Assembly: GCA_020809705.1 (NCBI GenBank)
Contig: CP085836.1
Span: forward strand, 806,001-870,000
From: Calonectria ilicicola
Taxonomy: Eukaryota > Ascomycota > Sordariomycetes > Hypocreales > Nectriaceae
Length of the DNA: 64,000 bases
Reading direction: 5' to 3'
A program made the translations under genes and the position numbers. Under the pieces are notes generated by a model that was not told where the DNA came from, searched no databases, and saw only the letters and a list, made by a program, of their open reading frames with translations. Positions 31,539 to 32,031 of the stretch are shown piece by piece. Position 1 is the stretch's first letter. Each line of letters opens with the position of its first letter.

Positions 31539-32031
31539 ATGGCTAGGGAACGACAGCGGCCTGCAACAGTATTTGGCGTTCAGGGTAAACGACGTCCGCC
31601 CCTTAGAACACTTCGTTTCTCGACTAAGTGTAATGGATTTAGCTGGAGATCCCGTGCCGATTAGAGCAAGGCGCCGTTACCGTCCTGGTACCGTAGCATT
31701 GAGAGAGATCAGAAGGTACCAAAACGGATATGATTTACTACTACCCAAGATGCCTTTCTTGAGAATTGTACGATGGGTACTCTAATCTTTCAATTGCAGT
31801 CAGCCTACTAATGAACGCTCTTTAAATTAGGTCCAAGAGGTTGGAATTACCTGTCGACCAGCCGGAGAAGGAATGAGATGGCAGACTCAAGCAATCCAAG
31901 CTTTGCAAGAAGCTGCCGAAGCATACTTGATTCATTTATTCGAACATACCAATCTTTGTGCTATACATGCTAAACGGGTTACAATCATGCAGAGGGATAT
32001 GCAACTTGCGCGAAGACTTCGGGGATCTTAA
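31539..32031 (+). CDS. Centromeric histone H3 variant (CenH3/CENP-A-like)
   Basis: Three exons (31539-31584, 31643-31767, 31831-32031) with introns of 58 and 63 bp give 123 residues. The second intron has a perfect TACTAAT branch site. The protein has a short tail of about 25 residues ending AGDPVPIRARRRY, the alpha-N helix RYRPGTVALREIRRYQ, alpha-1 with LLLPKMPFLRIVQEV, a loop 1 (GITCRPAGEGMRW) several residues longer than in canonical H3, alpha-2 QALQEAAEAYLIHLFE, and alpha-3 TIMQRDMQLARRLRG. The tail lacks the canonical K4, K9 and K27 contexts. Trp replaces the H3 Phe before alpha-2. The long loop 1, the Trp and QALQEAAEA are CenH3 hallmarks in known families. It would replace H3 in centromeric nucleosomes and seed the kinetochore. 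It ends at RRLRGS without the longer tail of many fungal CenH3s. It sits between a Tc1 relic and a LINE fragment, so it may be an extra, diverged copy. Confidence 0.9.

Follow-up and report, generated by a model that had tools for sequence, protein, structure and literature searches.

We analyzed a 64,000-nucleotide stretch of the Calonectria ilicicola genome (GenBank assembly GCA_020809705.1, contig CP085836.1, positions 806,001 to 870,000 of the forward strand; here called the window), in which positions 31539 to 32031 (+) encode a second centromeric histone H3 (CenH3). The contig, C12 in our numbering, is a minichromosome of 1.36 Mb, and a resident CenH3 gene is found on a core chromosome of the same genome. 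The gene on C12 keeps its full structure, is an extra copy, sits on a small chromosome, is under constraint and belongs to a separate lineage, of which three other Nectriaceae genera each have a member. Its product is predicted to be centromeric, and we tentatively read this intact second CenH3 as favoring the retention of the minichromosome itself, an interpretation that we put somewhat short of probable.

The gene model built on the window letters has three exons and a product of 123 residues. Exon 1 (31539 to 31584) encodes residues 1 to 15 and ends in phase 1, and it is followed by a GT-AG intron of 58 bases (31585 to 31642). Exon 2 (31643 to 31767) encodes alpha-N and helix 1, a second GT-AG intron (31768 to 31830; 63 bases, phase 0, with TACTAAT inside) follows, and exon 3 (31831 to 32031) supplies loop 1, helices 2 and 3 and the stop; both of these exons match the histone profile PF00125. 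At the junction of exons 1 and 2 (VQ/AGDPVP), the preceding residues agree with those of resident CenH3s in the alignment. Some doubt about the start comes from position 31633, where intron 1 holds an in-frame ATG; retention of this intron would give a shorter, almost tail-less CenH3. The protein scored 119.2 bits against PF00125 (cutoff of 26.4), indicating an H3-type histone fold, and its best match among solved structures was Schizosaccharomyces pombe Cnp1 (PDB 9lrv, 2.8e-43). In an alignment that included 46 database CenH3s and the H3 of this genome, it showed a loop 1 three residues longer than that of the canonical H3, Trp instead of Phe before helix 2, the motif QALQEAAEA and a short tail without the H3 tail sequence, all features that the first-pass annotation had already read from the letters. 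It differs at positions where at least 95% of residents agree, e.g., D96H and K112R. In trees of 49 and 50 rows (with a single H3 row), it clustered with CenH3s and not with H3, and at the sequence level we consider the name CenH3 sound.

Searches of the whole genome with the protein (10 rows at E of ≤1) and with PF00125 (12 rows), both of which score only the best candidates, recovered another CenH3 gene at C4:5539864-5540248 (-), with 136 residues. Since its product is nearly identical to the CenH3s of Thelonectria olida (103/106 residues) and Ilyonectria robusta (104/106), we consider it the resident CenH3, and because it is located on a core contig, the C12 gene is an extra copy, as had been suspected. 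The genome thus has two CenH3s, and the C4 gene rules out that the one on C12 is the only one. The near-identity with these Nectriaceae also leaves without support the link to insect pathogens that the first-pass annotation had hinted at for the host. The two introns of the C12 gene are identical in place and phase to those of the C4 gene, and the proteins share 81 of 106 residues. The canonical H3 gene is on C8. Two more H3-like sequences were found, a divergent gene on core chromosome C5 (L004, C5:6212480-6212665, -) with Trp before helix 2, a loop 1 of H3 length and an odd C terminus, which is nearer to H3 (36/59) than to CenH3 (31/62), and a weaker match at C6:2755860-2756036 (+), with 42% identity over residues 34 to 95 of the C12 protein. 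A tblastn scan of 304 kb of C12 (out of 1,355 kb) detected no degenerate CenH3 besides the intact gene.

The comparison of both copies was also used to evaluate constraint. They differ by 107 bases, with 82 of 107 alignable residues kept, while random placement of the same number of changes kept a mean of 43.7 residues and a maximum of 57 (2,000 trials) and introduced a stop codon in 96.7% of the trials. Nonsynonymous divergence (dN) was 0.20, and synonymous sites were saturated, with 83% differing. Judged by these figures, the C12 gene is under purifying constraint, and it is an old gene, kept working through most of its history. A decaying relic, kept by chance, would be consistent with the reduced N and C termini, the dead transposon that adjoins the gene and a G+C content at third codon positions below that of the resident (0.37 versus 0.46). 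We regard it as quite improbable, as the gene has neither stop codon nor frameshift, its splice sites are intact and its conservation is far above random; a pseudogene is not favored for the same reasons. A recent duplication of the resident is not favored either, given the 81 of 106 shared residues and the saturated synonymous sites, although the tree in which both copies are sisters was borderline (P = 0.051).

The closest proteins in a first database search were resident CenH3s, at ca. 74% identity (best 120 of 7994 matches). The same search provided CenH3s of a second type from Ilyonectria destructans (P0050, 203-kb contig) and Mariannaea sp. PMI_226 (P0024, 488-kb contig), and a profile search added one from T. 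olida (P0179, 127-kb contig); the sizes of these three contigs depend on the assembly and are not a measure of chromosome size. T. olida has both types, with its resident (P0009) on a 2.25-Mb contig, while no resident CenH3 of I. destructans or Mariannaea appeared among the matches listed. A 50-row tree was built from 47 proteins, chosen out of the 201 fetched, and three genes of our host; in it, the C12 CenH3 and these three formed one clade apart from the residents (100/97, with a bootstrap that was not fully settled). The combination of M52, T76 and M114 was present in 3 of 177 database CenH3s (24 of the 201 proteins were dropped by the pattern), namely, P0024, P0050 and P0179, as well as in the C12 protein. 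Individually, these residues appeared in 5, 4 and 5 of the 177, and M114 is found in S. pombe Cnp1 too, so single signature residues can arise twice. Over a core of 106 residues, identity among the four members was 73 to 83%, compared to 91 to 98% among four residents. The four appear to represent a second lineage of CenH3 that evolves fast and is so far seen in four Nectriaceae genera, Calonectria included. Within the second lineage, T. olida and Mariannaea are paired (99/90), and the resident of our host is nearest to those of T. olida and Ilyonectria, a difference that might be an indirect hint of horizontal movement. A divergent CenH3 from Fusarium lateritium (P0054, 37-kb contig) forms a long branch within Fusarium and is possibly an independent second copy.

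The main alternative to a role in the retention of the minichromosome is that the protein is a functional but redundant passenger, built into centromeres like the resident and adding dosage, with no special benefit for the minichromosome. The retention of all the main CenH3 features would fit this, as would the animal CenH3 duplicates, described as common and often short-lived (PMC9577544), and we see it as a possible, though lesser, explanation. However, a lineage that is present in several genera and evolves much faster than the residents is unlike plain redundancy, and decay would be expected of a redundant copy whose synonymous sites are already saturated. Rapid change under constraint fits conflict or specialization.

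The genome comprises 69,930,349 bases in 12 contigs, of which C12 (1,355,330 bases) makes up 1.94%; the other eleven measure 4.17 to 8.36 Mb. At its left end, C12 has 67 letters followed by telomere repeats. These letters, similar to those at the start of C7, resemble an adapter with barcode left over from long-read sequencing; if so, they would indicate that the chromosomes truly end there. The terminal 2 kb on the right match the end of C4, the start of C10 and the start of C6 at 100% identity, and for C2 such a match covers 864 bases; the right end of C12 has no telomere repeat itself, and in C6 the repeats directly follow the point where C12 stops. From the left telomere repeats and a right subtelomere matching core ends, we conclude that C12 represents a linear minichromosome, nearly complete, from the same nucleus. 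A contaminant contig is ruled out by this end, 100% identical to core ends, and by a transposon shared at 99%. With the shared subtelomere, the young transposons and its small size, C12 looks like a small chromosome of the accessory type, in agreement with the accessory-looking location first proposed. Among the 62 open frames of at least 250 amino acids in C12:1-220000, 40 were scanned, of which 6 were transposase or Helitron, several were NACHT, HET, ankyrin or TPR proteins, and 13 had no match; in the window, 29 of 42 frames of at least 140 amino acids were scanned. There was no tRNA in the 304 kb of C12. None of the 63 scored tRNAs was on C12 (1.2 expected), and as only 63 of 2,542 candidates were scored, we discarded tRNA poverty as a proof of accessory status. 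The GC content of C12 pieces was 0.455 to 0.471, compared to 0.484 for 19 kb of core loci, a small and gene-biased sample that was not used as evidence.

Profile matches to chromatin genes across the genome showed 3 of 21 SET and 1 of 7 JmjC domains on C12, versus 2 of 141 kinases used as control (121 of 349 kinase candidates were scored). The binomial P values were 0.0075 for SET and 0.0020 for SET plus JmjC, or 0.015 when two similar SET frames of 337 amino acids were considered as one, and Fisher's test against kinases gave 0.0073 (0.030 collapsed); these values are uncorrected, and the families were picked because of a precedent in Metarhizium (see below). The presence of SET and JmjC matches on C12 might indicate a new noncentromeric or stage-specific role of the histone, e.g., in spores, meiosis or heterochromatin, as might its short tail, the lost C-terminal residues and the changes at highly conserved positions. 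The region of loop 1 and the Trp is expected to decide the centromere targeting of CenH3. The C12 protein retains both the long loop and the Trp, which argues against a new role, and we find it decidedly unlikely.

The mechanism that we prefer is self-serving centromere marking by the C12 CenH3. The genome has a single match to the chaperone Scm3, on C1, whose product would load the C12 CenH3 into centromeric chromatin through loop 1 and helix 2. By providing CenH3 itself, or a version with a preference for its own centromere, a dispensable chromosome might then escape loss when cells divide or have fused. Several observations weigh against this. The centromere of C12 was not located, and profile searches of the genome gave no Scm3 or CENP-C match on C12; of the two CENP-C matches, one is on C1 and the other, at C8:99899-100108 (+), 100 kb into that contig, is possibly a duplicated inner-kinetochore gene. 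The protein lacks the C-terminal IWGGLG found in most residents and in its clade relatives. Two of the three SET matches on C12 may correspond to one duplicated gene, and no Pre-SET, CXC or AWS partners were found for them in the genome profile searches (Pre-SET is present on C4 only, CXC on C1 only and AWS on C1 and C5 only). On this basis, KMT1-, KMT6- or SET2/ASH1-type genes were rejected for C12, and its SET genes may not modify histones. Approximately unbiased (AU) tests gave mixed results for the placement of the C12 copy, with P = 0.021 inside the Nectriaceae residents, 0.137 with the Thelonectria and Ilyonectria residents and 0.051 as sister to C4. Joining the lineage to the Nectriaceae residents cost 0.02 log units (P = 0.50), and placing the second copy of T. 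olida with its own resident gave P = 0.0063. Long branches are also in play in the CenH3 tree. As an explanation of the clade, a long-branch artifact was rejected, given that with I. destructans left out, or T. olida and Mariannaea, the C12 copy still grouped with the remaining members (Shimodaira-Hasegawa-like approximate likelihood ratio test [SH-aLRT] of 94 and 93). When all three relatives were left out, it fell among Hypocreales, unsupported (46).

The lost C-terminal residues could also weaken kinetochore binding, in which case the variant might act as a poison of the resident centromeres, with cells or fusion partners losing other chromosomes while the minichromosome stays. A histone that does active harm would not easily persist in the nucleus that encodes it, and this explanation seems to us hardly probable at all. 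An extension of self-serving marking is that Nectriaceae minichromosomes carry a private, fast-evolving CenH3 that marks their centromere independently of the resident and lets them survive the elimination of a fusion partner's chromosomes, which we consider doubtful.

According to the first-pass annotation, the CenH3 gene was flanked by a dead Tc1 transposon and a LINE (long interspersed nuclear element) fragment. The former is indeed there, immediately upstream (29969 to 31055, -), broken into three frames, with Pfam matches to DDE_3 (1e-7 and 0.0034, the latter below the cutoff) and HTH_Tnp_Tc3_2 (1.9e-6, below the cutoff) and a relative at C12:155351-156350 (73 to 76%). The latter found no backing, as the four open frames between 32318 and 35643 had no Pfam match up to an E value of 1. 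The young insertion that had been noted nearby corresponds to a piggyBac-type element (DDE_Tnp_1_7) at 25540 to 27647 (-), of which C10, C11 and other parts of C12 have copies at 99% identity; six full-length copies had at least 97% identity, three of them on C12. Deleted piggyBac-type copies with near-equal scores appear at C12:237235-238390, 753331-754486 and 965979-967134 and near the end of C9 (C9:5213966-5215124), suggesting duplicated segments. A NACHT/TPR protein (36242 to 37816, +) is a diverged duplicate of another at 55884 to 57494 (-). The piggyBac element, the Tc1 relic and the NACHT/TPR gene (36050 to 37967 and 55731 to 57674) recur with 73 to 85% similarity within 13 kb of the left arm (C12:146155-159598). 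This may be an ancient duplication of a segment, in which no remnant of CenH3 is present.

These data bear on a puzzle, namely, the persistence of accessory chromosomes and the transfer of one of them alone while the rest of the donor genome is lost. A minichromosome that encodes a divergent CenH3, whose lineage is present in other genera, offers a concrete and testable answer, i.e., self-encoded centromere identity. Private marking, if true, would explain the passage of a lone accessory chromosome between strains and species. A minichromosome of this kind would in addition present a rare natural example of two CenH3s competing in one nucleus of a fungus, useful for questions of centromere drive; filamentous fungi of this group are haploid-type.

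Among known proteins, S. pombe Cnp1, presumably the single resident CenH3 of its host, resembles the C12 CenH3 in ending in RRIRGA without the IWGGLG tail and in having DMQLARR, but it lacks KMPF and WQTQ, residues that the four-member clade has. By title or the start of the abstract, we found no report of a CenH3 on a fungal accessory chromosome, in a coverage that leaves out most subscription journals. The CenH3 paralogs of Caenorhabditis, Drosophila, cereals and cowpea (PMC9577544, PMC8200288, PMC8603533, PMC7738545) are, like ours, second genes beside an ancestral one, with divergence of tail and fold, although none is placed on an accessory chromosome in those abstracts and our case comes from a filamentous fungus. 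Accessory chromosome 3 of Fusarium oxysporum has functional Kmt6b/c (PMC12774646), methyltransferases and not histones, of a type (KMT6, with CXC) that has no match on C12; as described there, they share with the C12 CenH3 being accessory-chromosome paralogs of a core chromatin gene that form their own clade across species. The closest known system is the transferable accessory chromosome of Metarhizium robertsii and Metarhizium guizhouense, reported to carry histone H3 homologs and histone-modifying enzymes (PMC10687773, PMC12774646), so that the parallel invoked in the first-pass annotation does exist. That chromosome is transferable, while C12 is known here from its sequence, and the Metarhizium histone genes are known by description as H3 homologs, whereas ours is a clear CenH3 of a separate lineage in a Nectriaceae host. 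As possible counterparts of the histone modifiers, C12 has the three SET matches and one JmjC match, not of the Pre-SET, CXC or AWS type. What both chromosomes have in common, as far as the Metarhizium one is described, is the presence of extra histone genes on a chromosome that is accessory or looks so.
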